46,081 nucleotides of DNA. Origin: Bacteroidaceae bacterium. Lineage in GTDB: Bacteria; Bacteroidota; Bacteroidia; Bacteroidales; Bacteroidaceae. Each line of letters opens with the position of its first letter. The stretch's first letter is position 1. Under the pieces are notes generated by a model. The model ran no database searches. It was not told the origin of the DNA and worked only from the letters and a program-made list of their open reading frames with translations. Of this stretch, positions 24,972 to 41,034 are shown piece after piece. Location of the stretch: NCBI GenBank assembly GCA_017466325.1, contig JAFTUK010000011.1, forward strand, positions 1 to 46,081. Direction: 5' to 3'. Both the position numbers and the translations under genes were made by a program.

Positions 24972-25463
24972 ATGAAAAAGTTATTTCAATTGAGCATAGC
25001 TCTATTGTCAGTTCTTGTGTTCTCTGCTTGTTCTTCTGATGATAGCGTTGCCAAAAGAGCCGAGGGCACTTATACTGTAAAGCGTCATACTACCGTTACT
25101 ACGCCTTCAGTAATGGCCAGTTCAACTAACTCAGATATAAAATTGGTAGTCAAGGCAGAGGCAGATTATTTCGTAAAGATAGTAATTCCTACCACAAGTT
25201 ATGACCTAAATGGTCAGGAAATGATTATCCCCGAGTTTACCATCTCTGCAGTTCCTGTTGTTGACGACCTTGAAAATGGAGCGGAAATCCTAAAGCATCC
25301 ATTTATGATAGAGGGTGAAAAGAATGTCGAAGGTACCATTGTCGGTGAGTTTGAAGAGGATGGTGAGGTTGAGGTAGTCTTAGAGTATAAGTACGGCAAG
25401 ATGCCTTTTCCTATTAAGCAGACATTTATTAACCGCTGGAAAGATTTGGATTACGACAATTGA
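24972..25463 (+). CDS. Calycin-like/DUF4840-type lipoprotein, tandem paralog 2
   Basis: This 163-residue lipoprotein has MKKLFQLSIALLSVLVFSAC at its start and the same beta-strand order as the previous gene (TSYDLNGQEMIIPEFTISAV, then EYKYGKMPFPIKQTF). An acidic insertion (GEFEEDGEVEVVLE) is present. The stop TGA (25461-25463) overlaps the TTG start of the next gene, so translation coupling is likely. Function is not known beyond the probable link to haem or metal uptake. Confidence 0.75.
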   Translation: MKKLFQLSIALLSVLVFSACSSDDSVAKRAEGTYTVKRHTTVTTPSVMASSTNSDIKLVVKAEADYFVKIVIPTTSYDLNGQEMIIPEFTISAVPVVDDLENGAEILKHPFMIEGEKNVEGTIVGEFEEDGEVEVVLEYKYGKMPFPIKQTFINRWKDLDYDN

Positions 25464-26224
25464 TAAAGGTGCTAATTTCCAAATACCAATATAACCGTTT
25501 TCTTGCACTCTGTCTGGCCTCGTGCCTTCTGGCAGGGTGCAATGGCATATTTGACGGCATCTATGACGAGCCTGTGCGCGATGAGGCCTTGCAACTGGGT
25601 TTCAACCCCACGGCAGAAGAGGGCAGGTACACCCTCGTTATGGATGCACGCAACTATGACGAGTGGATATACATGGACCTGCACCGCCTCACGCTGGAGA
25701 AGTACGACATACCCACCGCCCTGACGGGAGAGTGGGACGGCAAGAGCGTGTGGGTAAGGTATAACGTGCAAGGCTCCCGCTATACCCTTCTGGAGGAACG
25801 GCAAGTGGACACACAACCCGAACCCGAGGAATGGGACTTGGCCATACACCATTTCGACGTGCGCACCAACGGCGGCCAAGTCCTGCAAACGGGATACACG
25901 TCGGTGGATGACCTGCCCGAGAGTTCCGCATCCTTTGCCTCCGAAGACTTCCGCCCCGACGAATGGACGAGCCACCAGTGCATCGTGGACTTCTCGGGCA
26001 TGTTCGACTACAACATCTGGTATCAGGCCTCGCCCGTCAATCTGGTGCTCTCGGATTGGGTAAGGATGGATTTCTCCACACCTCCGCCCAAGTACGAGGC
26101 CTCGCGCCGTGTCTACCTCCTGCGCATGCAGGACGGCACCGTGGCGGCCCTGCACATGAAGAGTTACATGAGCGAGGCTGGCACAAAGGGCATACTGACC
26201 ATCGACGTGAAATATCCATATTAA
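25460..26224 (+). CDS. hmuY: HmuY-like haem-binding lipoprotein, non-ATG start
   Basis: This 254-residue protein has a lipobox LLAGC near residue 27. The C-terminal half has HmuY-family wording: WDLAIHHFDVRTNGG, SQCIVDFSG-like strand, RRVYLLRMQDGTVAALHMKS, and GTKGILTIDVKYPY. HmuY-type proteins take haem from host proteins and pass it to a TonB receptor, here encoded 32 bp downstream. No ATG lies before the lipobox; the start must be TTG 25460 (overlapping the upstream stop) or GTG 25469. Family assignment is good; the haem ligands cannot be assigned by eye. Confidence 0.82.
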   Translation: MIKVLISKYQYNRFLALCLASCLLAGCNGIFDGIYDEPVRDEALQLGFNPTAEEGRYTLVMDARNYDEWIYMDLHRLTLEKYDIPTALTGEWDGKSVWVRYNVQGSRYTLLEERQVDTQPEPEEWDLAIHHFDVRTNGGQVLQTGYTSVDDLPESSASFASEDFRPDEWTSHQCIVDFSGMFDYNIWYQASPVNLVLSDWVRMDFSTPPPKYEASRRVYLLRMQDGTVAALHMKSYMSEAGTKGILTIDVKYPY

Positions 26225-26256
26225 GAGTCCCCTACCATCGGACATAATACAATGCA

Positions 26257-28251
26257 ATGCAGATGAAGCGCTTCCTACCAACCTTTTCTCTACTCCTGCT
26301 CCTTGGGAGTCTTTCCCCCGGCGTGTGCCGTGCAGAGACCTCAGAGGCGGATTCCGTGGCTTCCGACCATAGTATGGGGGAAGTGGTGGTGACGGCCACC
26401 AGGACGCGCAAACTCCTGAAGGACACCCCCATACTGACTCGAGTGGTGAACCGCAAGGACATAGAGATGGCCGATGCCACCGACCTGCGCGACCTGCTCC
26501 AACAGGAACTGCCCGGTGTGGAGTTCACCTATTCCATGAACCAGAAACTGAACATGAACATGTCGGGCTTTGCCGGGCAGAGCGTGCTGATTCTGGTGGA
26601 TGGCGAACGCCTGGCAGGAGAGACCATGGAGAATGTGGACTTCAGCCGCATAGACATGAACAACGTGGAGCGCATAGAGATAGTGCGCGGTGCACAATCC
26701 GCCCTCTATGGCGCCGGTGCCGTGGGTGGTGTGATAAACATCATCACACGAGGTGCCTCGCGCCCGTGGTCGCTGAACCTGAACGGACGTCTTGCCGACC
26801 ATCGCGAGCAACGCTATGGCGGTGTGCTGGGACTCAGCAAGGGCAGGGTAGGGAACATGCTGGATGTCCAGTACACCTCGGTGGACAACTATACGGTGTG
26901 CATGGATTATGCCGACGAGTGCCAGTTCCGCAATGTCTACGGCGGACGCACCTGGAACGTGAAGGACAAGTTCACATACCGCCCCACCGATGCGCTGCGC
27001 CTGACGGCACGTGCAGGGTACTACTTCAAGGAACTCACCACCGATGCGGACGTGTATGAGCGTTTCCGCGACTTCTCGGGCGGACTCCGTGCGGAGTGGG
27101 ACATTACGGGCAAGGACCATCTGGAGGTCTCCCTGTCCTACGACCAGTACGACAAATCCGACCTCCTGCGCCTTTGGGAGCGCGACGTGATGGATTATCG
27201 CAACCAGCAGATGTCCGTGCGCACAATGTACAACCGCACGTTCCGGCAGAAGGACATCCTCACCGTGGGAGGCGACTACATGCGCGACTACCTGCACACA
27301 TACCAGTTTTCGGACGGCAAGGAACGCGTGCAATACACGGGCGACCTCTTTGCCCAGTACGATTGCTTCCTGGGCAAGCGATGGGAACTGATAGGTGCCG
27401 GAAGATGGGATTACTTCTCGGATGCCAAGGGCGCTTCCCAACTGACGGGCAAACTGGCGGCACGCTACACCTTCGATTCCTTTATCCTAAGAGCAGGCTA
27501 TGCCGGCGGATTCCGTGCACCCACACTGAAGGAGAAGTATTCCTACTTCAATATGGTGGGCGACATCTACGTGAAGGGCAACGAGGCTCTGGAGGCAGAA
27601 CGTTCGCACAACTTCAACCTGTCGGCCGAATACTCGTGGCAGAACTACAACTTCTCTGCCTCCGCATCCTACAACACCATAGCCAACCGCATCACTTCCT
27701 CCGCACCCCAGCAGGGTACTATGGGCGAGTACTATGTCCAGTACATCAACCTGCCGCGTGCCCGTGTCCTCGGTGTGGAACTCCTTGCACTGGGACAATG
27801 GACCTTGCAAGGAGGGCACAAACTCAAGGCCAGGGCAAACTATGTCTACACCCGCGAGTGGGTAAGCCAGGGCGGTGCCACACCATATTGCCCTGCCCGT
27901 CCCCATTCGCTCAACCTGCGCATGGATTGGGACAAGCAATGGACCTCTTTCTACGGAACCACCCTTTCCGTCCTTGGCCGTGTGCTCTCGGCCGTGGATT
28001 ACGAGACGATACAGATGGATTATCCCTTCACTCCCCGTCAGGTGCACAATCCTGCCTACACCATCTGGAAGGTACAGTTGCAGAACCGTCTGGGCAAGGG
28101 CGTAAGGTTCAACATAGCCGTGGACAATGTCTTCAACTACTCCCCTGAGGTGTATTACTTCAACTCTCCCGTCACCTTGGGCATCAACCTCATGGCAGGC
28201 ATCAGCGTGGATGTGGACAGACTTTGGGAACGGAAATCTGCGAGTAAGTGA
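26257..28251 (+). CDS. TonB-dependent haem-type receptor
   Basis: This 664-residue outer-membrane receptor has a signal peptide (about 1-27). A plug starts at SMGEVVVTATRTRKLLKD, with ILVDGERLAGE, RIEIVRGAQSALYGAGAVGG and VINIITR. A 22-strand barrel follows with the FRAP box (YAGGFRAPTLKEKYS) seen in haem receptors, and a terminal aromatic-rich strand. It lacks the N-terminal carboxypeptidase-like domain of glycan receptors. With the HmuY-like gene it forms an uptake pair powered by TonB. ATG 26257 or 26263 is the start. Confidence 0.88.
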   Translation: MQMKRFLPTFSLLLLLGSLSPGVCRAETSEADSVASDHSMGEVVVTATRTRKLLKDTPILTRVVNRKDIEMADATDLRDLLQQELPGVEFTYSMNQKLNMNMSGFAGQSVLILVDGERLAGETMENVDFSRIDMNNVERIEIVRGAQSALYGAGAVGGVINIITRGASRPWSLNLNGRLADHREQRYGGVLGLSKGRVGNMLDVQYTSVDNYTVCMDYADECQFRNVYGGRTWNVKDKFTYRPTDALRLTARAGYYFKELTTDADVYERFRDFSGGLRAEWDITGKDHLEVSLSYDQYDKSDLLRLWERDVMDYRNQQMSVRTMYNRTFRQKDILTVGGDYMRDYLHTYQFSDGKERVQYTGDLFAQYDCFLGKRWELIGAGRWDYFSDAKGASQLTGKLAARYTFDSFILRAGYAGGFRAPTLKEKYSYFNMVGDIYVKGNEALEAERSHNFNLSAEYSWQNYNFSASASYNTIANRITSSAPQQGTMGEYYVQYINLPRARVLGVELLALGQWTLQGGHKLKARANYVYTREWVSQGGATPYCPARPHSLNLRMDWDKQWTSFYGTTLSVLGRVLSAVDYETIQMDYPFTPRQVHNPAYTIWKVQLQNRLGKGVRFNIAVDNVFNYSPEVYYFNSPVTLGINLMAGISVDVDRLWERKSASK

Positions 28252-28837: not shown

Positions 28838-29116
28838 ATGAATCTCAGCGGATTGCTCGTGGGCCTTGCCACATTCCTCATTATAGGCCTTTTCCACCCC
28901 ATCGTCATCAAGTCGGAGTATCACTTCGGCGTACGTTGCTGGTGGGTGTTCCTGCTTGTGGGCATCGCCTTTGCCATTGCCTCCTGCTTGGTGCACGATA
29001 TTGTCATTTCCACCATCCTTGGCGTTACAGCCTTCTCCTGCTTCTGGAGCATCCTGGAACTCTTTGAACAACGCGAGCGTGTCCGCAAGGGTTGGTTCCC
29101 ACGGAAGGAGAAATGA
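28838..29116 (+). CDS. DUF4491 family membrane protein
   Basis: This 92-residue protein has three hydrophobic helices (about 5-20, 33-52 and 53-70), a basic C-terminus (RERVRKGWFPRKEK) and the family core GLFHPIVIKSEYHFG and ILGVTAFSCFWSILELFEQ. DUF4491 proteins are small inner-membrane proteins of unknown function in Bacteroidetes. ATG 28838 gives the typical N-terminus MNLSGLLVGLATFLIIGLFH. A 110-bp near-copy of its 3' half is at 39480-39592. Confidence 0.82.
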   Translation: MNLSGLLVGLATFLIIGLFHPIVIKSEYHFGVRCWWVFLLVGIAFAIASCLVHDIVISTILGVTAFSCFWSILELFEQRERVRKGWFPRKEK

Positions 29117-29405: not shown

Positions 29406-29437
29406 TTTGTTCTAAAACCCTAAATGACATATTTTTG
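29406..29437 (+). promoter_or_regulatory. Complete -33/-7 promoter of the TonB/ABC operon
   Basis: TTTG (29406-29409), a 20-bp spacer and TATTTTTG (29430-29437) fit the Bacteroidetes consensus exactly. The start near 29443 gives an 80-nt leader to ATG 29524. Confidence 0.8.
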
Positions 29438-29523: not shown

Positions 29524-32505
29524 ATGAACAGACGTGTATCTGCATCAATCTCCAAGGTTTTGCTTGTGGTTGGCATAATGCTGATTGCATGCGGAGAATG
29601 TTTTGCGCAGATTCATGCCACACTTGCCGGACGGGTAACGGATTCGCGAACAAAAGAACCCTTGCCAGGGGTGATGGTGACCACTGACCAGAAAGGACTT
29701 TGGGCAATAAGCGACGAAGACGGATATTACACCATCGCCAATCTGGACTTCCCCACGGCGGTAGTTACGTTTTACCTGCTCGGATATCAGAAGCAGAGTG
29801 TCCCCGTGAAACTTGGTGAAGGCAAGAACACACGTAACGTGGCCCTGCACGAAATGAACCTGTCGCTGGACGAGGTGGTGGTTACGGCACAGAGACGCAC
29901 GGAAAGCCTGAGCAGTTCCTATGTCATTGACCGCAATACGCTGGATCATGCACAGATAATGAACCTGAACTATGTCACCACGCTCCTGCCTGGCGGAAAG
30001 ACCGTAGGCGACCAGAACCTTGCATCCGGAGCAAAGCCGGTAGCCCTGCATGCCGGCGGTGCAAGCGAATTGGGAAATGCCTCGTTCGGCACGGCCATAG
30101 ACCTGGACGGGCAACGGTTGGAAACCAATGCGTCGCTTGGCGAAATACGTGGTGTAGACCTTCGCAATATAGGGTCGTCGAACATAGAATCCGTGGAGGT
30201 GGTGGCCGGTATCCCTTCAGTGGAGTACGGCGACCTGTCCAACGGTATGGTGAAGATAAACACCCGCAAGGGACGCACTCCCTTCGTGGTGGAACTGATG
30301 GTGGAACCCAAGACCAAGTCCATAGCCCTGAGCAAGGGTTTCTATCTTGGCCGTAGGGCAGGAACGCTGAATGTCAATGCCGAGCATACACGCTCTATTT
30401 CCAACCTGGCCTCGCCACATACGGCATACATGCGCAACAACGTGAACCTGACCTATTCCAACGCCTTCAAGGACCACATGGGGCATCCCCTCAGCCTTAC
30501 CGCATCCTTGGGAGGGAACATAGGCGGATACAACTCGGAGGCCGACCCCGACGAGTTTAAGGATACATACACAAAGACGCGCGACTACATGCTCCGTGGC
30601 AACGTGAAACTCCACTGGCTCCTGGACAAGCCATGGATATCTAACCTCACCCTGCAGGCCTCCGTGTCGTATAGCGACAAGATGAACGAGACGAACTCCA
30701 ACAAGAGTTCCGCTTCTACACAACCATACATCCATGCCACCGAGGCAGGGTATCACATAGGTGAACTCTACGTGGAGAATCCCGATGCCGACATCATCCT
30801 CGGACCTACGGGTTACTGGTATGTGCGCTCCTTTACCGACTCCAAACCTCTGGCATATTCCGTAAAGGCAAAGGCCGACTGGACAAGGCGTTGGGGCAAG
30901 ACAATGAACACCGTCCTGTTGGGAGCGGAACTTGCCGGTAGCGGAAACCTGGGACGAGGCCTCTATTACGAAGACATGAGCGTGGCACCCACATGGAGGG
31001 AGTTCCGCTATGACGGATTGCCCTTCATGAACAACGTGGCACTCTTTCTGGAAGACAAGTTCTCCATGCCCGTGGGCAGACGCTCCTCCCTGCATCTGAG
31101 GGCAGGACTCCGCTCGGACATCACCATGATAAAGGGTTCGGAATACGGCACCGTGGCAAACGTGTCTCCGCGCATCAATGCCAAGTACGTCTTCTGGGAG
31201 AACCGGGGGAAGGGAGTCAGCGACCTGTCGGTCTTCGGAGGTTGGGGAAAGTCGGTCAAGCAACCCTCCTTTACCGTCCTGTATCCAGCCACCACGTATA
31301 GCGACAAACTGGCCTTCGCACCAGGCACCACCGCCGACGGCAGGACCTTCTATGCCTACTATACACAACCTACCACACCCAAGTACAACCCCGACCTGAA
31401 ATGGCAATACACCATACAGAACGAACTGGGAGTGGAGGCGAAGTTGTGGGGCACGCGCGTATCGCTTTCCGCCTTCCGCAACAAGACCTTCAACCCCTAC
31501 ATGAGCCGAAGCGTCTATACCCCTTATACATACAAACTGACCACGCAAGCCGATATAGAGGCAGGGTGCACCATACCCACAGAGAACCGCCACTACATGA
31601 TTGACCGCCACACGGGCATCGTAACGGTGCAGGACCGTACCGGAGTCATTGCCGACCAGGTGCTGGGGTACAAGGAAAGGAACACCTACGTGAGCCAGGC
31701 GGAGTACACCAACGGTTCGCCCGTGGAAAGACGCGGTTTGGACCTGATAGTGGACTTTGCGCAGATACGCCCCATTCGCACCAGCATCCGTCTGGATGGC
31801 AACTATTACTGGTACAAGGGCCTGAACGAAACCCTCGTTGCCTCCATGGGGCAGGCATCGTCATCCATGGACGGCACGCCATACAAGTACGTGGGGTATT
31901 ATGCCGGTTCGAGCACGGCCGCCAACGGTTCGCTTTCAAGCCAGATAAATGCCAACCTGACCATATCCACGCATATCCCCAAGATACGCATGATATTCTC
32001 CCTGCGCATAGAATCCTCGCTCTACACTTACGGGCAGAACCTCTCCGAGTACGCCGACGGGAGGTTGAGAGGCTACCTCCTGGAGGCGGCAGGGGACCAT
32101 CACGGCACTCAGCAGGGGGGCATATACAACAAGGACTCCTATGTGGCCGTATATCCCGAATACTACACCGCATGGGGCAATCCCGAAGAGAAAATACCCT
32201 TCCTGGACAAGTTCGTGTGGGCAAGGGAGAACGACAGGGAACTGTATCAGGACCTCTGCAAACTGGTGGTGAAATCCAACACCACGTACTTCTTCAACGA
32301 GAACCGCATAACGGCCTACTATGCCGCCAACTTCAACGTGACCAAGGAACTGGGCAAATGGGCCTCCGTCACCCTGTATGCACGCAACTTCTTCTATCAG
32401 ATGGGCAAGGTGAAATCCTCGCAGACGGGCCTGGAGTCGTCCCTGTTCGATAGCGGTTACATCCCCAAGTTCTACTATGGCATGTCCGTGAGAATAAAAC
32501 TTTAA
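29524..32505 (+). CDS. TonB-dependent receptor with N-terminal carboxypeptidase-like domain
   Basis: This 993-residue outer-membrane receptor has a signal peptide (about 1-29, MLIACGECFAQ). A CarboxypepD_reg-like beta-sandwich (about 33-115: ATLAGRVTDSRTKEPLPGVM, then LGYQKQSVPVKL) precedes the TonB box region DEVVVTAQRRTES, the plug and a barrel ending in YYGMSVRIKL. It heads an eight-gene operon. There is no SusD gene; the partners are a DUF4876 lipoprotein, a second barrel, a PepSY protein and an ABC transporter. This composition points to a metal, siderophore or other cofactor rather than a glycan. The cargo is not known. Confidence 0.88.
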   Translation: MNRRVSASISKVLLVVGIMLIACGECFAQIHATLAGRVTDSRTKEPLPGVMVTTDQKGLWAISDEDGYYTIANLDFPTAVVTFYLLGYQKQSVPVKLGEGKNTRNVALHEMNLSLDEVVVTAQRRTESLSSSYVIDRNTLDHAQIMNLNYVTTLLPGGKTVGDQNLASGAKPVALHAGGASELGNASFGTAIDLDGQRLETNASLGEIRGVDLRNIGSSNIESVEVVAGIPSVEYGDLSNGMVKINTRKGRTPFVVELMVEPKTKSIALSKGFYLGRRAGTLNVNAEHTRSISNLASPHTAYMRNNVNLTYSNAFKDHMGHPLSLTASLGGNIGGYNSEADPDEFKDTYTKTRDYMLRGNVKLHWLLDKPWISNLTLQASVSYSDKMNETNSNKSSASTQPYIHATEAGYHIGELYVENPDADIILGPTGYWYVRSFTDSKPLAYSVKAKADWTRRWGKTMNTVLLGAELAGSGNLGRGLYYEDMSVAPTWREFRYDGLPFMNNVALFLEDKFSMPVGRRSSLHLRAGLRSDITMIKGSEYGTVANVSPRINAKYVFWENRGKGVSDLSVFGGWGKSVKQPSFTVLYPATTYSDKLAFAPGTTADGRTFYAYYTQPTTPKYNPDLKWQYTIQNELGVEAKLWGTRVSLSAFRNKTFNPYMSRSVYTPYTYKLTTQADIEAGCTIPTENRHYMIDRHTGIVTVQDRTGVIADQVLGYKERNTYVSQAEYTNGSPVERRGLDLIVDFAQIRPIRTSIRLDGNYYWYKGLNETLVASMGQASSSMDGTPYKYVGYYAGSSTAANGSLSSQINANLTISTHIPKIRMIFSLRIESSLYTYGQNLSEYADGRLRGYLLEAAGDHHGTQQGGIYNKDSYVAVYPEYYTAWGNPEEKIPFLDKFVWARENDRELYQDLCKLVVKSNTTYFFNENRITAYYAANFNVTKELGKWASVTLYARNFFYQMGKVKSSQTGLESSLFDSGYIPKFYYGMSVRIKL

Positions 32506-32537
32506 TGTTAAATAATAATACCAAACAAACAATCATT

Positions 32538-33884
32538 ATGAAAAAGTTTCTTTCAATGATGGCCGCCGTGGCCATGCTTTTTGCCTTCACGGCATGTACC
32601 GAGGAGGACGACGATTACCGCACCTATAGCGTGGCGGTGCAGTTGCTGACACCCGATGTGGCCGACGCACCTCTGGAGGGTGTTACCGTTACGGCACGTG
32701 GTGTAAGCGGTGTGGCACTTGCCGCACAGACAGACGAAGCAGGTGTAGCAACATTTGCACTGCCCGAGGACATTTACAATTTTTCAGCTTCTCACAAGTT
32801 CAATGCCGATGGTGTGGTGTACGTAGTGAACTATGTGTTGCAGAAGTCAATAGCAAGTGCCGACTTTGTAAACGCCAACACAATGAGCCTGGAGATGGAG
32901 CCTGTAGTGAGCCAGGGCAGCAAGCAGGTAATCCTGAAGGAACTGTACGTTGGCGGATGCCCCAAGGACGACGGTTCCGGCTTTTATCAGTACGACAAGT
33001 ATGTGGTCATCTACAACAACTCCGACCAGGTGGCCACAATACCCAACTTCTGTATTTCACACGTAGGCCCCTATAACGCACACGGCAATAACCAGAACTA
33101 CGTGGACGGCAAACTCTTCTATGCCGAGGAAGACTACACTCCTGCCTATTCCTTCGTGTTCTACATGACAAAGGACCTGGTGCTGGAACCCTACACATCT
33201 GCCACCATTGCCCTGTGTGGCGCTATCGACCACACTGGCACATACTCCCAATCCGTTGACCTGAGCGAGGCAGACTATGTATGCTACGACCCCGAGGATT
33301 TTGACAACCCCAACTATCACCCCGCTCCCTCCGAGAAGATTGATGCGGAGAACTATATGCCCGCTTCAAAGTTGGGACTGGGCAATGCCGCCGCATGGAG
33401 CGTGTTGTGCCCCGGCATATTCATCTTCTCAACCGGCGACAACGAACCCTTGGCCTACACTCAGGATAAGGCCAACAGCTACTACATGGGCAATAATGAA
33501 AAACCCACTAATGCCTGCGCCAAGATACCAAATCAGTGGATATTCGATGCCGTGGACATTTGGACAGAGGAGAATGAGAGTGAATCATTGCCCCGCTACT
33601 CTGCCAGCATAGAAGGAGGTCATGTTTGCATGACCAACAAATTGGGCTATTCCATCTACCGCAATGTCGACAAGGAGGCCACGGAGGCTTTGCCGGAGAA
33701 CGAGGGCAAACTGGTTTACAACTATGGCCTGGGCACAACTACCATCAATGGCGGCATTTCCACCGACCTCAGCGGCATAGATGCCGAGGCGTCCATTGCC
33801 AACGGTGCACATATTATATATATGGACACCAACAACTCCATGAACGACTTCCACCAGCGTAAGGTGGCAAGCCTGAAAAGATAA
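32538..33884 (+). CDS. DUF4876 lipoprotein
   Basis: This 448-residue lipoprotein has the signal MKKFLSMMAAVAMLFAFTAC (Cys20). A fibronectin/carboxypeptidase-like module (about 30-125: TPDVADAPLEGVTVTARGVS) is followed by a larger domain with VILKELYVGGCPKDDGSGFY, KYVVIYNNSDQVATIPNFCI and a closing FHQRKVASLKR. Lipoproteins of this family sit beside a TonB receptor and a DUF6850 barrel in Bacteroidales. It is likely a surface-exposed partner that captures the ligand. The in-frame ATG at 32505 overlaps the upstream stop and would spoil the signal peptide, so 32538 was chosen. Confidence 0.85.
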   Translation: MKKFLSMMAAVAMLFAFTACTEEDDDYRTYSVAVQLLTPDVADAPLEGVTVTARGVSGVALAAQTDEAGVATFALPEDIYNFSASHKFNADGVVYVVNYVLQKSIASADFVNANTMSLEMEPVVSQGSKQVILKELYVGGCPKDDGSGFYQYDKYVVIYNNSDQVATIPNFCISHVGPYNAHGNNQNYVDGKLFYAEEDYTPAYSFVFYMTKDLVLEPYTSATIALCGAIDHTGTYSQSVDLSEADYVCYDPEDFDNPNYHPAPSEKIDAENYMPASKLGLGNAAAWSVLCPGIFIFSTGDNEPLAYTQDKANSYYMGNNEKPTNACAKIPNQWIFDAVDIWTEENESESLPRYSASIEGGHVCMTNKLGYSIYRNVDKEATEALPENEGKLVYNYGLGTTTINGGISTDLSGIDAEASIANGAHIIYMDTNNSMNDFHQRKVASLKR

Positions 33885-33902
33885 TCCACCCCGATAGTAC
33901 GA

Positions 33903-35525
33903 ATGAGAAGAAACGTCCTCTTGCCATATCTGGTGTCTTTAGTCCTGACGGGCGGTGTTTTCCACACCGCCTTGATGGCGCAAACGGATAACACCTTCAA
34001 CTGGAATACCCTGCGCGATGTGCGCCTGGACAGGAACTGGCTCAATAGCGAGAACCCTGCCGGCCTTCATGCCTTCGGGCAGGGCACGGAATCGGAAATC
34101 GTGCTTTATGGCAAGGGGGGATATGGAGGACTGAAGGACTACTTCCTTTCCAAGAGCGAAACGGCCTTCGGGGTGGAGGCCTCTTCCATGGCAAGACTCT
34201 CCCGGCGTGTGGTGGTGGGCGGTCAGGTGGGATACCGCAACGTGTCGGCCAAGGACATTGCCGGTTCCTACTTCATCGACCCCACGCAGACACCCTTCGA
34301 CCTGGTGGAGTTTACTGACGCCAATGCCGGAGACAAGACCCTGGAGGAGTTCTCCCTGCAGGGCGGGGTGGGAGTGAACCTGGCCCGATGGGTGTCGTTG
34401 GGCGCTTCGTTGGATTACAAGGCCGCCAACTACTCCAAGCGGAAGGACCTGCGCCATGTCAATTCGCTTATGGACATGGACCTCGTTTGGGGAGGCGTGT
34501 TTCATGCTGGCGAGCGTGTGGACATAGGTCTGAACTATGTGTACCGCCGCAGGAACGAAACCCTGCTCCTGAGCACGTACGGCACACAGGACAAGACCTT
34601 CGTGTCGCTCCTGAACTACGGTGCGTTCTTCGGCAAGCAGGAAACCTTCGGCGAGATAGGTTACACGAAGGAGAACGAGAACAAACCCCTCTTCGATGCC
34701 CGTCACGGTGCAACCCTGCAGGTGGCGTGGCGCATAGGCAATGCCGAGTGGTTCAACGAGGCGGGTTTCCATACGCGTAGCGGATATTATGGCGACCCCT
34801 CGTACTCCACGGTGGTTTATTCCACCCACCGGGGGAACGGTTTCTTCTATCAGGGCCTGCTGACCTTCGCCTCGGGGAACGATGCCCATCGCTTCGGGTT
34901 GCGGTACGGACAGGAACACGTTGCGAATACCGAGAACATATATTCCTACAAGAACGAGGAAACGGGGCGCGACTACATAGAATACCTTGGCGAGCGCGAG
35001 GTGGGCGAGCGTACCCAAAGGTCGCTTGCCTTGGGCTACACGGGACGCTTCGGCATAAGGCACGGCCTTGCACGATGGGAGGCCTGGGCGGACGCATCCC
35101 TTGACAACCGCAACACGAGGGCATCCAATTATCCCGACTACAGAAGGCAGAACATATCCTGGTGGCGGCTGAAGGCCATGGGCACGCGCAACTTCCTCTC
35201 GGGCAGGAACTGCTATTCGCTCTCCGTTTCCGCCCTGTATGGGGGAGGTTCGGGAGAACCGTGCGCCGACGGACGGTACGGGTCGGACACATCGGGCGAG
35301 GCCCTGACACGCACCCGCAACGACCTGCTCATGCAGGAGTGGGAATACCTTGCCGCCTCGCAGATAGGGGCAGGCATAGGCTTTACCTACTCGCGTGCCA
35401 TGTGGAAGGGCAAGGTGCGCGGAAATGCGGGGCTTGCCTATGACATGTGCAAGGCTTTTGGCACCAGGCATCTCGATGGCACAATGCGACATACCGTGTC
35501 GCTAAGGATAGGATGCAACTTCTAA
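33903..35525 (+). CDS. DUF6850 outer-membrane beta-barrel
   Basis: This 540-residue protein has a signal peptide (about 1-26, ending ALMAQ). A long series of alternating strands (VSLGASLDYKAANYSKRK, IGLNYVYRRRNETLLLS, GIGFTYSRAMWKGKVRG) ends in HTVSLRIGCNF, a typical barrel-end signal with terminal Phe. No plug or TonB box is present, so it is a plain pore or enzyme-like barrel rather than a receptor. It is 18 bp behind DUF4876. It may serve as an exit or entry channel for the same ligand. Confidence 0.8.
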   Translation: MRRNVLLPYLVSLVLTGGVFHTALMAQTDNTFNWNTLRDVRLDRNWLNSENPAGLHAFGQGTESEIVLYGKGGYGGLKDYFLSKSETAFGVEASSMARLSRRVVVGGQVGYRNVSAKDIAGSYFIDPTQTPFDLVEFTDANAGDKTLEEFSLQGGVGVNLARWVSLGASLDYKAANYSKRKDLRHVNSLMDMDLVWGGVFHAGERVDIGLNYVYRRRNETLLLSTYGTQDKTFVSLLNYGAFFGKQETFGEIGYTKENENKPLFDARHGATLQVAWRIGNAEWFNEAGFHTRSGYYGDPSYSTVVYSTHRGNGFFYQGLLTFASGNDAHRFGLRYGQEHVANTENIYSYKNEETGRDYIEYLGEREVGERTQRSLALGYTGRFGIRHGLARWEAWADASLDNRNTRASNYPDYRRQNISWWRLKAMGTRNFLSGRNCYSLSVSALYGGGSGEPCADGRYGSDTSGEALTRTRNDLLMQEWEYLAASQIGAGIGFTYSRAMWKGKVRGNAGLAYDMCKAFGTRHLDGTMRHTVSLRIGCNF

Positions 35526-35569
35526 TGAAAACAAAAACGAATACTAACAAATAAAACATTACAGACAAG

Positions 35570-36148
35570 ATGAAAACAAGATTCATGATCATCATGGCCG
35601 CCATGGCCTTTGTGTTCACTTCATGTGGCAACAACAACACAGGTACAAACAATGCAGGGCAGGCACAGGAGGCACCAGCCGCCCTGGATATTGACCAGGT
35701 GCTGGCATCTGCCGACAGCCTTGCCAACCAGGAAATCACCATGGAGGGCATCTGCACCCACACCTGCAAGCATGGTGCAACAAAAATCTTCATGATGGGT
35801 AGCGACGACACGAAGACCATCCGCGTGGAGGCAGCCGGCCTTGGTTCCTTCGACCAGAAGTGCATCAACAACATCGTGCGTGTGAAGGGTATCCTTCGCG
35901 AGGAGCGTGTGGACGAGGCATATCTCCAGCGCTGGGAGACATCGGTGGCCGCCTCCACGGCCGAGCAGCATGGCGACGGCGAGGCAGGATGCGACACAGA
36001 GAAGGCTGCACGTGGCGAGACGGGCAACACCGTGGAGGAGCGCATTGCCGACTTCCGCCAGAAGATTGCCGCACGCAAGGAGGCTACTGGCAAGGACTAT
36101 CTCTCCTTCTACTTCGTGGAGGCATTGGCTTATGAAATTGTCGAGTAG
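35570..36148 (+). CDS. OB-fold lipoprotein with Cys/His cluster
   Basis: This 192-residue lipoprotein has a lipobox ending FTSC (about Cys19). An OB-fold-like domain follows (about 45-125). Its first strand carries GICTHTCKHGATKIFMMG, a dense C-x-H-x-C-x-H arrangement. A charged Gly-rich insertion and a helical tail end the protein. The Cys/His group could bind a soft metal such as zinc, iron or copper in the periplasm. The gene overlaps the PepSY gene by 17 bp, so they are co-translated. I do not recognise a named function; a metallochaperone-like role is an inference. Confidence 0.7.
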   Translation: MKTRFMIIMAAMAFVFTSCGNNNTGTNNAGQAQEAPAALDIDQVLASADSLANQEITMEGICTHTCKHGATKIFMMGSDDTKTIRVEAAGLGSFDQKCINNIVRVKGILREERVDEAYLQRWETSVAASTAEQHGDGEAGCDTEKAARGETGNTVEERIADFRQKIAARKEATGKDYLSFYFVEALAYEIVE

Positions 36149-36701
36149 CCAGTTGCGCATCTGGTGCCGCACCATACACCGCGACCTCTCGTTCTTCTTC
36201 TCGGGCATGGTGCTCATCTATGCTATCTCAGGCTTGGTGATGAACCATCGCGATGCCATAAATCCGCATTACTCGGTATCGCTCACTGAGATGCAGATGG
36301 ACAACCTCCCTTCGCAAGCAGAATTCAATCGCGCCAAGGTGGAGGAACTGATGCACAAGGCAGGTGTTTCAGAGGCATATACCAAGCACTATTTCCCCAA
36401 GCCAGGGCACCTGAAGGTGTTCCTGAAAGGCGGTTCTTCGCTTCAGGCAAACATTGTCACGGGGCATGTGGTGTACGAATCCCTTGCACGCCGTCCCCTG
36501 ATAAGCACCATGACCACCCTGCACTACAATCCCGGCAAGTGGTGGACGTGGTTTGGCGATGCCTTTGCCCTCTCCCTGGTGATAATTACCCTAACCGGCA
36601 TCTTTATGCTGAAGGGCAAGAAGGGGCTTTGGGGTAGGGGAGGCATAGAGTTGCTGGCGGGGATGCTCATACCGGTGCTGCTTATCTTATTCATCAAATA
36701 A
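36132..36701 (+). CDS. PepSY-associated inner-membrane protein
   Basis: This 189-residue protein has a transmembrane helix at about 18-38 (FFFSGMVLIYAISGLVMNHR), a periplasmic PepSY-like domain and two C-terminal helices (ALSLVIITLTGIFMLKG; ELLAGMLIPVLLILFIK). The first helix and following NHRDAINPHYSVS match PepSY proteins found in Bacteroidetes iron and xenosiderophore loci, where they may reduce or strip the metal. ATG 36132 gives the normal N-terminus (RTIHRDLSFFFSG). The gene is 15 bp before the ABC ATPase. Confidence 0.82.
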   Translation: MKLSSSQLRIWCRTIHRDLSFFFSGMVLIYAISGLVMNHRDAINPHYSVSLTEMQMDNLPSQAEFNRAKVEELMHKAGVSEAYTKHYFPKPGHLKVFLKGGSSLQANIVTGHVVYESLARRPLISTMTTLHYNPGKWWTWFGDAFALSLVIITLTGIFMLKGKKGLWGRGGIELLAGMLIPVLLILFIK

Positions 36702-36716
36702 AAGGTTTGTATAACA

Positions 36717-37595
36717 ATGGAAAATATAATTGAGTGCCGTAACCTGACGCACTATTATGGCAAGCGACTGATATACGACAATCTTTCGTTTGGCGTACCC
36801 CGGGGGCGCATCCTGGGACTTTTGGGCAAGAACGGTACTGGCAAGACAACAACCATCAACATACTGAGCGGTTTTCTCCAGCCCCGTAGCGGCGAGTGCT
36901 ATATCCTGGGCGAGAAGATTGGCAATATGAATCCTCTGACGCGCCGCAAGATAGGTTTGCTCATCGAGGGGCATGTCCAGTACCAGTTTATGAACATTGA
37001 GCAGATAGAGCGCTTCTATGCCTCGTTCTATCCCAACTGGAAGCGTGAGGCATACTATGAACTCATGAGCCGCCTGAAGGTGGCACCCCATCAGCGCATC
37101 AACCGCATGTCATGCGGCCAGCGTTCGCAGGTGGCGCTCGGCCTGATCCTGGCACAGGATCCAGAGGTGCTGGTGCTTGACGACTTCTCGTTGGGTCTTG
37201 ATCCTGGATACCGACGCCTGTTTGTAGATTACATGCGTGAGTATGCCAAGGCCGAGGACAAGACCGTGTTCCTTACCTCGCACATCATCCAGGACATGGA
37301 GCGCCTGGTGGACGACTGTATAGTGATGGATTATGGAAAGATACTGGTGCAGATGCCCGTGGAGGAACTCCTGGGCAAGTTCCGCCGCTACACGGCCCAG
37401 GTGAGCGAGGGTTTCCGTATGCAGGATACAGATGGCATATACACCCCCTCGGTCATACGGCAGACGTTGGAACTCTTCTCCATGCTTCCGGAAGCCGAGG
37501 TGAGAGCGCGCCTCTCCCTTCAGGGTGTTGCCGATGTGCAGGTGGAGAAGGTTGGTTTGGAGGATGCCTTCATAGGATTGACAGGCAAATACTAA
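36717..37595 (+). CDS. ABC transporter ATP-binding protein with atypical motifs
   Basis: This 292-residue ATPase has Walker A GKNGTGKTT (38-46). The signature is degenerate: RMSCGQRSQ in place of LSGGQ. The Walker B reads VLVLDDFSLGLDP, with Asp156 where the catalytic Glu is expected, and the switch His is in FLTSHI. It should pair with the permease encoded 28 bp downstream. The Glu-to-Asp change need not abolish activity but may slow hydrolysis. The direction of transport is undetermined; the single small permease suggests an exporter or a lipoprotein/metal-handling pump rather than a binding-protein importer. Confidence 0.85.
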   Translation: MENIIECRNLTHYYGKRLIYDNLSFGVPRGRILGLLGKNGTGKTTTINILSGFLQPRSGECYILGEKIGNMNPLTRRKIGLLIEGHVQYQFMNIEQIERFYASFYPNWKREAYYELMSRLKVAPHQRINRMSCGQRSQVALGLILAQDPEVLVLDDFSLGLDPGYRRLFVDYMREYAKAEDKTVFLTSHIIQDMERLVDDCIVMDYGKILVQMPVEELLGKFRRYTAQVSEGFRMQDTDGIYTPSVIRQTLELFSMLPEAEVRARLSLQGVADVQVEKVGLEDAFIGLTGKY

Positions 37596-37623
37596 TACAT
37601 AATCACACGATAGGAAAAGAATT

Positions 37624-38295
37624 ATGATAAAAGCAATATTTTACAAGGAATGGATAAAGACAAAGTGGTACCTGTTGCTTGCCTTGCTCGTATCCCTGGG
37701 TTTCTCTGCCTATGCCATGTTGCGCATTTCACGTGTGTGCTCGCTCAAGGGTGCCGAGCATCTGTGGGTGGTGATGATGCAGCGCGATGCCATATTCGTG
37801 GAACTCTTGCAATACGTGCCCCTCATCCTGGGACTTGTTTTCGCCATAGTGCAATTCGTTCCCGAGATGCACCACCGTTCGTTCAAACTGACCCTGCATC
37901 TGCCCATGCGTGCCACCAGTGCCTTGGCATCCATGCTTTCGTTTGGCATGTCCATGATGGTTCTTGTGTGTGTGCCAGCATTGCTGCTCATGTGGGTATA
38001 CCTGCAAAGCGTGCTTGCCCCCGAACTCTATTGGCACATTCTGCTCAGTGCCATGCCTTGGTATCTGGCGGGTATGGCGGCATATCTGCTCACGGCGTGG
38101 GTGGCGTTGGAACCCACATGGGGCAGAAGGGTGCTCAACCTGGTGCTCGGAGTCCTGTTGCTCAGGATATATTTCCTGGCACCGTCGCCAGAGGCGTATA
38201 ACGACTTCCTGCCCCTTCTTGCCATCATCACCCTGTGCTATAGCATATTGTCCGTATTGTCTCTGACACGCTTCCGCGATGGCAGACAGGATTAG
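37624..38295 (+). CDS. ABC transporter permease, ABC-2-like
   Basis: This 223-residue integral-membrane protein has about six helices. The N-terminus (MIKAIFYKEWIKTKWYLLLA) is the usual start of ABC-2-type permeases (KEW then a first helix). The C-terminus has a helix pair (LLAIITLCYSILSVLSLTRF). It forms the transporter with the ATPase encoded just before it. The next gene, DUF4857, starts 44 bp later. Substrate unknown. Confidence 0.78.
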   Translation: MIKAIFYKEWIKTKWYLLLALLVSLGFSAYAMLRISRVCSLKGAEHLWVVMMQRDAIFVELLQYVPLILGLVFAIVQFVPEMHHRSFKLTLHLPMRATSALASMLSFGMSMMVLVCVPALLLMWVYLQSVLAPELYWHILLSAMPWYLAGMAAYLLTAWVALEPTWGRRVLNLVLGVLLLRIYFLAPSPEAYNDFLPLLAIITLCYSILSVLSLTRFRDGRQD

Positions 38296-38339
38296 AGCAA
38301 ATCATTCATACACTCTCATACAATATAAAAAAGAAAACT

Positions 38340-39377
38340 ATGTTCAAGACAAGCAAAATATTCTTTTGTTTCTTGGTACTCTTTGTGCTCGTGTGGCAGG
38401 TGCCGGCGTGCTACAACTTCTTTATGGCAAAGTCCGTGGACACTCCATTCACCCTGTATAGTAGCATAGCAGGAGAATTTGCCACCCTGCAGGTAGACGA
38501 GGACAAGAAGATGCAATACAGGGATGCCTCGGGCAGGGAGTACACCGAGGAGCAGTTCGACTCCATACTGCCCACCTTCTACTACCGCCAGTTGATTACG
38601 GACGGCCGTTTCCCCGACACCATCTGCGGACGTGCCGTTACGCCGCGCGGCATACAGTTGTCCAATTTCAATATGCGCATTTCGCCATTGGACCTGAACA
38701 AGCCCCGATTGGGCATTCAGCAGATGCTTGAAAGCATGTCGGGACGTGTAGACCTGGAACTCCCCGATGATGTCTTCCGTATCACTCCCGAGGGTATGGA
38801 ATTCGTAAAGATGGAGACAAATGCCATTGACCATGAGAAGAGCGCACGCTTCACACAGATGATGAAGCAGAAGGGATTCCTGTTCCCTGCCGCCAACATC
38901 TCTGGCAACCCCACCGACCGCAAGGAGTACGACGAGGGTTATGTGATGCTGGATGCCGCGGGAAAACTTTTCCATGTGAAGCAGACGGTGGGCCGCCCCT
39001 ATGTGCGTGCCATATCGCTCCCCGAGGGCATGACTCCCGAGCATCTTTTCATCACCGAATTTCCCTCGCGCAAGTGGTTGTGTTTCCTTACTGATACAGA
39101 GGGACATCTATGGGTAGTGGAAAGGGAGTCCTATGCCGTCAGACGCACGGAAATCCCTCCTTTCATCCCCGAGGAGCAGTCCATGCTCATTATAGGCAAC
39201 ATGTTTGACTGGACGGTAAAGGTGAATCGTGGCACTAGCGAGTGCTACTATGCCATCTCTGCTCAGGATTACACCCTTATCGATTCCATGTCCTACCAGA
39301 CACCCAGCCATACGCTTCCTGGCCTTTCCTTCACCTCCACGAAGGACAAGTTCGTGAAACCAAGGATTGTCAGGTAG
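38340..39377 (+). CDS. DUF4857 family protein
   Basis: This 345-residue protein has one N-terminal transmembrane or signal helix (IFFCFLVLFVLVWQVPA) and a large beta-rich exterior part with FYYRQLITDGRFPDTICGRA, EEYDEGYVMLD-like strands and LFHVKQTVGRPYVRAISLPE. The family is found next to this type of ABC transporter in Bacteroidetes and has no known activity. It may be a periplasmic subunit of the transporter. It is the last gene before the strong terminator at 39389-39430, which closes the operon. Confidence 0.8.
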   Translation: MFKTSKIFFCFLVLFVLVWQVPACYNFFMAKSVDTPFTLYSSIAGEFATLQVDEDKKMQYRDASGREYTEEQFDSILPTFYYRQLITDGRFPDTICGRAVTPRGIQLSNFNMRISPLDLNKPRLGIQQMLESMSGRVDLELPDDVFRITPEGMEFVKMETNAIDHEKSARFTQMMKQKGFLFPAANISGNPTDRKEYDEGYVMLDAAGKLFHVKQTVGRPYVRAISLPEGMTPEHLFITEFPSRKWLCFLTDTEGHLWVVERESYAVRRTEIPPFIPEEQSMLIIGNMFDWTVKVNRGTSECYYAISAQDYTLIDSMSYQTPSHTLPGLSFTSTKDKFVKPRIVR

Positions 39378-39388
39378 AGAATAACAAA

Positions 39389-39430
39389 GAACCTTCCCAA
39401 ACGTCCCTTTTGGGGGGATTGGGAAGGTTC
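39389..39430 (+). terminator. Terminator of the TonB/ABC operon
   Basis: A 12-bp perfect stem GAACCTTCCCAA / TTGGGAAGGTTC encloses an 18-bp loop and is followed by GTTGTCTTTA. It lies 12 bp after the DUF4857 stop. Confidence 0.88.
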
Positions 39431-39479
39431 GTTGTCTTTATGGTATTTAAATTTGTGTATTCATAAACCTGCCTCGTGC

Positions 39480-39608
39480 ATGGTTCAGGATATTGTCATC
39501 TCCACCATCCTTGGCGTTACTGCCTTCTCCTGCTTCTGGAGTATCCTCGAACTCTTCGAACAACGCGAACGTGTCCGCAAGGGCCTTGTATATTATAGGG
39601 CACCCTAG
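39480..39608 (+). pseudogene. Truncated duplicate of DUF4491
   Basis: An ATG-initiated 42-codon frame (MVQDIVISTILGVTAFSCFW, then SILELFEQRERVRKG) repeats the 3' half of the gene at 28838-29116 at nucleotide level with a few substitutions. It diverges after CGCAAGGG into an unrelated tail (LVYYRAP). Most substitutions are silent. There is no promoter visible. It is probably a relic of recombination at this locus, though the frame is open. Confidence 0.8.
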
Positions 39609-39624
39609 CATCTATCCCCTCTTA

Positions 39625-41034
39625 TTATTTACCAGTATTTATATCTGCAACAGCTCTAATAGATGCTACAAACAAATTAGGGTCAGGATGAATGGGGCTA
39701 ATGCAAAAATCATTGACATTTGAGAATCTGCATCTATATATATCCCATGGAGTCTTTGTGTAAAGCTCTTTATTTATGATGTCTAGACAATAAACTCCTG
39801 TATGGAATCTTTCTCGGACATATGTTCCGCTGAGATATCGTGCATATTTATTTTCAAGAATCTTTTTATAGGGCTCTGGTGTTGATTTTTTGTTTGTTGT
39901 AGAGATATATAGACCACATAGTGGTAGGAGTATGTGATTACCATTAGGTCCTGTTACTTTATAACAGTATTGACCATTTACGTATGTCAGTTCCCAATTA
40001 CATTTATTTTTCAATTCGTTGAGTTCATATTCTTGTGGCATACGCCATGGGTAGCCCATATGTGCTGTGGCTGCATCCCATCTGCTATCACCATATATTC
40101 TTTCAAAGTTGCTATAAAAGTTTTTTCTTTTATTCTTTATCTCTTTGTTTTCCTTTGCACCTTGTGGATGTGTTATATCATATATATTTCCCCAAAAATA
40201 GTATTTTCCAGAATCACAAGGTTCTTCTGCTCCTAAATTAGAAGTTGCCCACATTACCGATAGTCCCAAATCCACAAATTTGTAACCATTGATACTTCCC
40301 CTGGTGCTATCCTGATATATTACTTCATAATTATCGTTTTGGGAAATTTGTCTTTGATAATTACTCTCTTCAAATGGTTCGAACCAAATTAGATGTGGGA
40401 TAAATGTCAAAATGCCAAGTATCATTGAGAAAGTGAATGTTCTTGGTAAGATGGTTTTTGGACTTCTAAAACAAAATTTTGTTCCACATATATTATTAAT
40501 GATATTTAATACAATCCAGCTTTGGGTATTTATATCTCGTTTATTTTGTTCTTTTGGTGATGAAGTGATATCAGAACAATTTTCATCACAATAATTACAA
40601 ATGTCAGGAAATGGTATGTTCTGTTTATTTCTTTTCTTTTTGTTTGTAAAAGTAATCGTGTTGTTAGTGTTAAAGACAATATCACTTATTTCGTCAACAT
40701 TAATTATTAGCCTTTTAGTATGCGAACTGTAAATTATTGTTTCTGGAGTTATTTCCAAATAATTTTTGCTAGTAATCTTTAGACGATATATGGTGTATCG
40801 TATAGCATATGTTATGGCACATAGTATTGCGCAAGAAAGAAACTCCAATAAAAGTATTCTGTATCCAGGCACTCCACTTAGAATGAATGATACTAAGTCC
40901 ATATAGAACCACATACCTACAGAAAACGATAGAGGTGTAAAAATCCATGTCATGTAGAAATGAAAAAAAATACCTCCAGTGTAATAATGTAATCTGATTT
41001 TATCCATACTGAGTGTTAAAATATTATGTGCCAT
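39625..41034 (-). CDS. AT-rich membrane protein with FISUMP-like C-terminal domain
   Basis: This 469-residue protein has two N-terminal helices (about 22-50 and 56-78), a short PH-like cytoplasmic stretch, a third helix (about 205-220) and a C-terminal domain. That domain begins NGYKFVDLGLSVMWATSNLG, continues GKYYFWGN and AAAHMGYPWRMPQEYELNEL, matching the 'major paralogous domain' found in many Bacteroidetes proteins. The DNA is much more AT-rich than anything nearby, and it sits between a terminator plus gene relic and the agu operon, which suggests recent arrival. Start may be 41034 or the in-frame ATG 41007. Function unknown. Confidence 0.7.
   Translation of the reverse strand: MAHNILTLSMDKIRLHYYTGGIFFHFYMTWIFTPLSFSVGMWFYMDLVSFILSGVPGYRILLLEFLSCAILCAITYAIRYTIYRLKITSKNYLEITPETIIYSSHTKRLIINVDEISDIVFNTNNTITFTNKKKRNKQNIPFPDICNYCDENCSDITSSPKEQNKRDINTQSWIVLNIINNICGTKFCFRSPKTILPRTFTFSMILGILTFIPHLIWFEPFEESNYQRQISQNDNYEVIYQDSTRGSINGYKFVDLGLSVMWATSNLGAEEPCDSGKYYFWGNIYDITHPQGAKENKEIKNKRKNFYSNFERIYGDSRWDAATAHMGYPWRMPQEYELNELKNKCNWELTYVNGQYCYKVTGPNGNHILLPLCGLYISTTNKKSTPEPYKKILENKYARYLSGTYVRERFHTGVYCLDIINKELYTKTPWDIYRCRFSNVNDFCISPIHPDPNLFVASIRAVADINTGK

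Follow-up and report, generated by a model that had tools for sequence, protein, structure and literature searches.

Gut Bacteroides engage in an iron piracy that shapes colonization and competition with enteric pathogens, and no mechanism has yet been assigned to several of their strongly iron-induced loci. Among the TonB-dependent systems described to date, Fus of Pectobacterium and YddB-PqqL of E. coli are iron-responsive and couple the import of a cargo to its cutting in the periplasm (PMC6793856), and XusABC brings together a receptor, a surface lipoprotein, and a PepSY inner-membrane protein (PMC13142918). Of all loci in B. thetaiotaomicron, Xus is described as showing the most drastic iron regulation, and a further locus of this species, BT3625-BT3633, is induced 36.7- to 128-fold by iron depletion (PMC10434189). 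That report labels BT3625-BT3633 "putative fimbrillin synthesis/transport", with BT3630 annotated as a fimbrillin, and lists the locus again in the table behind its section on clinical (colitis) correlation; its passages on the locus give the iron response but no iron-uptake function or mechanism. Here we analyze a counterpart of this locus, an eight-gene operon (29524..39377, + strand) in a stretch of 46,081 nucleotides (nt) from a Bacteroidaceae bacterium (assembly GCA_017466325.1, contig JAFTUK010000011.1), hereafter the window. Our comparisons define this iron-induced locus as a two-module system, in which the outer half is linked to loci associated with M16 proteases and the inner half is a unit with candidate metal ligands.

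The operon fits the printed product list of BT3625-BT3633 in content and order (receptor, DUF4876, and so on to PepSY, ABC ATPase, a hypothetical protein, and DUF4857), differing by the extra fimbrillin-labelled gene of the latter (PMC10434189). This comparison runs not through B. thetaiotaomicron sequence itself but through B. xylanisolvens (locus L066), which fits the published list in having the eight genes of the window and, after DUF6850 and before the OB-fold lipoprotein, an additional fimbrillin-like gene, and through a like-sized, unscanned open reading frame (ORF) in B. faecis (L065). For BT3629 (printed as hypothetical or PepSY) and BT3631 (printed as hypothetical or DUF4876), the match is one of position alone. 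The initial annotation had proposed a candidate undescribed transport system. We find one conserved system, but "undescribed" was too strong because its counterpart has been published as a locus responding to iron depletion; the leaning of that annotation toward iron agrees with the published induction. Two loci with DUF4876 and receptor genes also respond according to the same source: BT1933-BT1939 of B. thetaiotaomicron, which includes a HEAT-repeat gene (3.5- to 7.4-fold), and PG1019-PG1022 of P. gingivalis (20.8- to 214.5-fold) (PMC10434189).

Relative to Fus and PqqL, the likeness lies in sister loci, where M16 proteases of the PqqL-like type accompany related receptor modules; the window operon itself has no protease match and carries two more outer-membrane parts and a back-end of OB-fold lipoprotein, PepSY, ABC transporter, and DUF4857. 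The plan of receptor, surface lipoprotein, and PepSY protein recalls XusABC, from which the operon differs in that its lipoprotein belongs to DUF4876 rather than DUF4374 and in the addition of DUF6850, the OB-fold lipoprotein, an ABC transporter, and DUF4857 (PMC13142918).

An eight-gene operon conserved in Bacteroidales

The eight genes are co-directional and tightly packed. They encode a TonB-dependent receptor with an N-terminal carboxypeptidase-regulatory-like domain (29524..32505), a DUF4876 lipoprotein presumed to be a surface-exposed receptor partner (32505..33884), a DUF6850 protein presumed to form a plug-less outer-membrane barrel (33903..35525), an OB-fold lipoprotein (35570..36148), a short PepSY membrane protein that is a putative heme-linked reductase (36132..36701), an ABC ATPase of ABCA/PmtA-like type (36717..37595), a membrane permease (37624..38295), and a DUF4857 protein (38340..39377). 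Successive junctions measure -1, 18, 44, -17, 15, 28, and 44 nt; for the PepSY gene, ATG 36132 is the most likely start, which gives a 17-nt overlap with the OB-lipoprotein gene, in preference to the beginning of the longer mechanical ORF at 35907. An exact match to the Bacteroides-type promoter (TTTG-N20-TATTTTTG, 29406..29437, + strand) precedes the genes and is one of 2 in the window, with 0.21 expected, for a pattern that we take to be the Bacteroides consensus. Its -7 box, TAnnTTTGC, is retained across 5 aligned upstream regions, and a scan of the window for sigma-70 promoters of the E. coli type yielded nothing above chance. Downstream, a terminator hairpin (39389..39430, + strand) with a modest T run lies in a region (39380-39450) that folds at -32.8 kcal/mol (z -5.3), and none of 200 shuffles was equally low. 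The tight or overlapping spacing, promoter, and strong terminator described in the initial annotation are thus all borne out, as are its families: those of the receptor, DUF4876, DUF6850, PepSY, ABC ATPase, and DUF4857 by Pfam, and the OB fold by an AlphaFold model.

For conservation we drew on 104 DUF4857 loci from two sources, 24 fetched and 80 named (the best 80 of 192 confirmed), with some genomes present twice. Among 301 sampled genomes of the window's family, DUF4857 occurs in 23, none of them another member of the window's genus, and 22 of the 23 also carry DUF4876 and DUF6850; the remaining one, G077, has a contig that breaks off within DUF6850. Profile searches recovered the gene set around DUF4857 both in the 24 fetched loci, of which 22 hold the OB-lipoprotein and 20 PepSY, and in the 80 named loci, which include 78 from Bacteroidales and 1 from Marinilabiliales. 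We then counted genes where the flanks of DUF4857 exceed 9 kb on the upstream side and 8 kb on the downstream side, as they do in 47 named loci. All 47 contain the OB-lipoprotein, ATPase, and permease, with PepSY, DUF4876, and DUF6850 in 44 each, and the receptor in 43, after receptor matches below 150 bits were dropped (removing a weak one in L094) and with the receptor of L117 lying beyond the locus edge. The co-occurrence of DUF4876, DUF6850, and DUF4857 across Bacteroidales, put forward in the initial annotation as a neighborhood check, therefore holds, and the eight genes make up one conserved system.

Two exchangeable modules

The operon consists of two modules, one of receptor, DUF4876, and DUF6850 and the other of OB-lipoprotein, PepSY, ATPase, permease, and DUF4857, a modularity that is new here. 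DUF6850 (71/301 genomes, over cut-off) and DUF4876 (69/301) are both commoner than DUF4857. From the DUF6850 matches we hand-picked 60 stretches centered on that gene; 2 proved to be DUF4857 loci, leaving 58, among which L216 overlaps L165 and four proteins (in L163, L161, L171, and L168) fell outside the domain scans. None of the 58 holds the OB-lipoprotein, the short PepSY protein, this type of ATPase (above 200 bits), the permease, or DUF4857. M16 genes occur in 22 of them and HEAT-repeat family genes in 18, with no locus having both. A gene was taken to adjoin the module if it shares the strand of DUF4876 or DUF6850 and lies no farther than 400 nt from either; by this measure, M16 genes adjoin it in 17 of the 58 loci and HEAT-family genes in 18.

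On the DUF4857 side, 15 of the 104 loci have neither DUF4876 nor DUF6850 in the stretch, which leaves 89 where adjacency can be judged, and in none of these does an M16 or HEAT gene adjoin the module. For M16 the contrast (17/58 versus 0/89) gives a Fisher p of 3e-8, in a sample that is non-random and whose loci are partly redundant. Where a DUF4857 locus does contain an M16 gene, as in five of the 104, the distance is 5.9 to 11.9 kb; an SBBP-like gene is found in 8 of the 104, adjacent in one (L111). The M16 label was confirmed by Pfam in L163, L164, L166, and L178, and the HxxEH motif is kept in 22 of 22 M16 proteins longer than 800 amino acids. The L178 protein, the one compared with solved structures, matches 9ldy (E 3e-206), PqqL (E 1e-69), and the putative zinc protease 6b03 (E 7e-37), which is presumably FusC. 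That the outer-membrane half of the operon is common to loci linked to M16 proteases points toward a peptide or protein carrier. Among the papers listed by searches of open-licence PMC literature, no title or abstract dealt with DUF4876-linked proteases.

Receptor phylogeny places the exchange of back-ends on related receptors. The window receptor is 58% identical to that of DUF4857 locus L026 and 38% to that of L066, and 46-49% to five M16-linked receptors (L177-L181). It is only 24% identical to the receptor of the Phocaeicola vulgatus DUF4857 locus L067, a locus that shares 52-72% identity with the window in its inner proteins. On a first tree (FastTree, with flagged long rows present), the DUF4857 label requires 9 changes, at least 8 of which are forced by the starred branches. 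More careful trees (LG+G4, rows more than 80% identical dropped) were built for subsets; the one for the window's clade places three M16-linked receptors in the midst of 16 linked to DUF4857. A single clade for the DUF4857-linked receptors is rejected there by the approximately unbiased (AU) test (p-AU 4.9e-8) and, more weakly, in a second clade (AU p 0.008), p-values that are somewhat generous because the first tree guided the choice of subsets.

HEAT-repeat proteins can be repeated in tandem: in L159, L167, L168, L175, L184, L185, L192, and L210, two to four of them follow the receptor-DUF4876-DUF6850 module, some with a C25-peptidase-like region.

Proteins of the receptor module

Pfam assigns CarboxypepD_reg, Plug, and barrel domains to the receptor, which scores 74 bits against the SusC/RagA model TIGR04056, far below its cut-off of 368. 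DUF4876 (Pfam E 2.5e-20) has a solved relative in its family, PDB 4q1z (E 1.2e-55). DUF6850 is matched at E 2.8e-36, and sequence comparison with solved structures gave it no convincing relative. Family-model scans of the eight operon proteins matched neither SusD nor a periplasmic binding protein, in agreement with the initial annotation. Given the missing SusD match and the sub-threshold SusC score, by which the operon departs from SusCD systems, we reject glycan uptake of the SusCD type.

Locus L052 (1651-11035) is a mosaic relative to the window operon, with receptor, DUF6850, and OB-lipoprotein about 98% identical, DUF4876 72%, and DUF4857 80%; the surface lipoprotein thus seems to be exchanged independently.

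Proteins of the inner module

The OB-lipoprotein has no Pfam match above any cut-off; an AlphaFold model lends support to its OB fold. It carries a conserved set of Cys, His, and Glu residues, C19 (in the lipobox), H64, C66, H68, C141, and E144, of which H64 and C66 are kept in 85 of 85 relatives and H68 in 83. The PepSY gene product belongs to PepSY_TM_like_2 (PF16357, E 2.4e-15), and its H16, H39, and H131 are invariant across 75 of 75 relatives. PepSY reductases for siderophores or heme have heme-ligand His in their membrane region, as known from FoxB, and the three invariant His may correspond to these.

The ATPase (ABC_tran, E 4.5e-22) was typed with further family models as ABCA/PmtA-like, an exporter-like type. 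In all 87 of 87 relatives, an Asp (D156 in the window) replaces the usual catalytic Glu after the Walker B Asp. The permease has 5 hydrophobic segments by a simple scan and no Pfam match at E 0.1. DUF4857 (Pfam E 7.5e-108) is predicted to have one N-terminal membrane helix followed by a domain whose second half is partially beta-propeller-like, and its location is probably periplasmic. In L045 and L046, which are second DUF4857 copies in two genomes, DUF4857 is longer (about 417 amino acids) with an extra C-terminal membrane region in the alignment, and the ATPase, permease, and long DUF4857 are placed before the receptor.

The slot between DUF6850 and the OB-lipoprotein varies by species. It holds a fimbrillin-like gene (Mfa_like_1) in L066 (5428-7050), an SBBP-like gene in L111 (4898-6763), and a gene for a protein of 1408 amino acids in L117 (2960-7183); it is empty in the window (44 nt gap) and measures 23 nt in P. 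vulgatus L067 and B. fragilis L074.

A tentative model and its alternatives

Our tentative model, which we rate at somewhat short of an even chance, is that the operon scavenges iron from a peptide or protein carrier by means of two exchangeable modules, with a PepSY reductase, an OB-fold metal lipoprotein, and an ABC/DUF4857 machine in the place that a protease takes in sister systems. At the cell surface, an iron-bearing peptide or small protein would be captured by the DUF4876 lipoprotein and the TonB receptor, which would draw it across the outer membrane, possibly helped by DUF6850. In the periplasm, the short PepSY protein would reduce the bound iron, at the step for which some sister systems encode an M16 protease, and the OB-fold lipoprotein would take the metal, using H64, C66, H68, C141, and E144. 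The ABCA/PmtA-like transporter, with DUF4857 as a periplasmic adaptor, might then spend ATP on removing or re-exporting the stripped carrier, a re-export of the kind raised in the initial annotation; inward movement seems less likely. Fe(II) could enter through FeoB, which is present in the genome.

A narrower and fairly unlikely form of this model is a protein piracy that dispenses with proteolysis. Bacteroidota would import an intact iron protein or peptide by way of a receptor family that elsewhere often goes with PqqL-like M16 proteases, the reductase and OB-fold lipoprotein would pull out the metal in the periplasm, and the ABC transporter with the propeller-like DUF4857 would drive extraction or eject the empty carrier. 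Lineages would swap cutting and non-cutting back-ends on related receptors. Either way, the operon would be a variant of TonB-dependent iron piracy and not a new kind of system, with an inner module predicted to stand in for a protease. The questions that follow are whether this receptor family imports proteins or peptides, and how metal is released where no protease takes part.

Several observations weigh against iron scavenging from a peptide or protein carrier. The operon's own proteins gave no protease match in Pfam, and the M16 link concerns sister systems; nor are all M16-linked receptors close, that of L163 being 26% identical to the window's. Neither an M16 nor a HEAT-family gene occurs in 18 of the 58 non-DUF4857 loci, some of which (L169, L211) are cut by contig ends, and L170 adjoins a GH127 glycosidase; the receptor family may therefore serve more than one kind of cargo, and some relatives may import something else. 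Among the 18 adjoining HEAT-repeat proteins, all of which were scanned, a C25-peptidase match exceeds the Pfam cut-off in only 3 and falls below it in 4 more, so the HEAT-repeat neighbor may be no protease, and the label "gingipain-like" fits these neighbors at most in part.

The inner genes also stray from the full set. They occur in L094, L100, and L122 without DUF4876 and DUF6850 nearby; for L100 and L122 the nearest 10 kb or so contain no receptor module, and L094 has at most a weak receptor match. PepSY went undetected in 5 of 58 named DUF4857 loci with enough flank, all of which keep the OB-lipoprotein, and in L052 it is cleanly gone from between its neighbors; it cannot, then, be essential everywhere. 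L045 and L046 show neither the OB-lipoprotein nor PepSY in the stretches read. Together these losses define a constant core of ATPase, permease, and DUF4857, a nearly constant OB-lipoprotein, and an optional PepSY protein. Finally, metal or heme binding by the inner proteins is suggested only by their conserved residues, and iron regulation of the window operon only by that of its homologue.

A rather unlikely but serious alternative is a Xus-like xenosiderophore system, in which the receptor and DUF4876 would bind a ferric siderophore, PepSY would reduce the iron, and the ABC unit would export the empty siderophore or act in import. The XusABC plan matches these three parts (PMC13142918), and the strong iron regulation of the Xus locus in B. 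thetaiotaomicron is in keeping with it (PMC10434189). In one related locus, L166, DUF6850 is followed directly by a long PepSY_TM protein, though the locus also encodes an M16 protein of 416 amino acids. Against a siderophore stand the M16 proteases beside 17 of 58 related front-ends, the PepSY losses just described, and the operon's lack of any match to DUF4374, the family of XusB; a search of the window's own genome for DUF4374 was likewise empty, though its positive controls stayed unrecovered too.

We consider it improbable that the cargo is heme or a porphyrin, with heme imported, its iron reduced or the porphyrin disposed of by the ABC unit, and the OB-lipoprotein acting as a heme chaperone. 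OB folds do include the heme chaperone CcmE, and an HmuY/receptor pair lies just upstream of the operon. However, the HmuY-linked receptor is built differently, with no CarboxypepD_reg match, and none of the eight operon proteins matched HmuY. Expression offers some support for heme, as a P. gingivalis DUF4876 gene changes strongly with hemin availability (PMC10470040).

More doubtful still is a unit for assembly or export of a metallo-enzyme, attached to the receptor, whose ABC transporter, DUF4857, and OB-lipoprotein would act on the cell envelope rather than on an imported cargo. The model for such a unit is NosDFYL, a copper-insertion unit composed of an ATPase, a permease, a beta-rich periplasmic subunit, and a metal-binding lipoprotein, a part list that the inner genes, on their predicted functions, resemble in outline. 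The exporter-like ATPase and the inner cassettes of L100 and L122, which stand apart from any receptor module, would suit this idea. In contrast to NosDFYL, however, the operon's set is attached to a TonB receptor module, whose genes are found in 43-44 of the 47 well-flanked named loci, and DUF4876 and DUF6850 accompany DUF4857 in 22 of 23 genomes.

A fimbrillin synthesis/transport locus, suggested by the printed label of BT3625-BT3633 and its BT3630 (PMC10434189) and by the Mfa_like_1 gene of L066, is highly improbable, and we reject a fimbrial locus for the window, since no such gene is present in its 44-nt slot or the 23-nt slots of L067 and L074, and since other proteins occupy the slot in L111 and L117.

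Genomic surroundings of the operon

Beyond the terminator, the window contains a convergent gene (39625-41034) for a protein of 469 amino acids that has hydrophobic stretches and no family match above cut-off; across its length this gene has no DNA match to the sister contig L050. A direct repeat of 114 nt (91% identity), corresponding to the 3' part of a DUF4491 gene, flanks the operon at 28978-29091 and 39470-39583, and L050 retains a 46-nt remnant of it after the operon. We sought an empty site around DUF4491 homologues in 9 same-genus stretches, which contained no other window flank genes and showed no such site. The repeat on either side suggests an insertion of the operon at the end of DUF4491. 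Directly upstream of the operon lie HmuY-type heme uptake genes (24972-28251), encoding a calycin-like protein, HmuY, and a TonB receptor.

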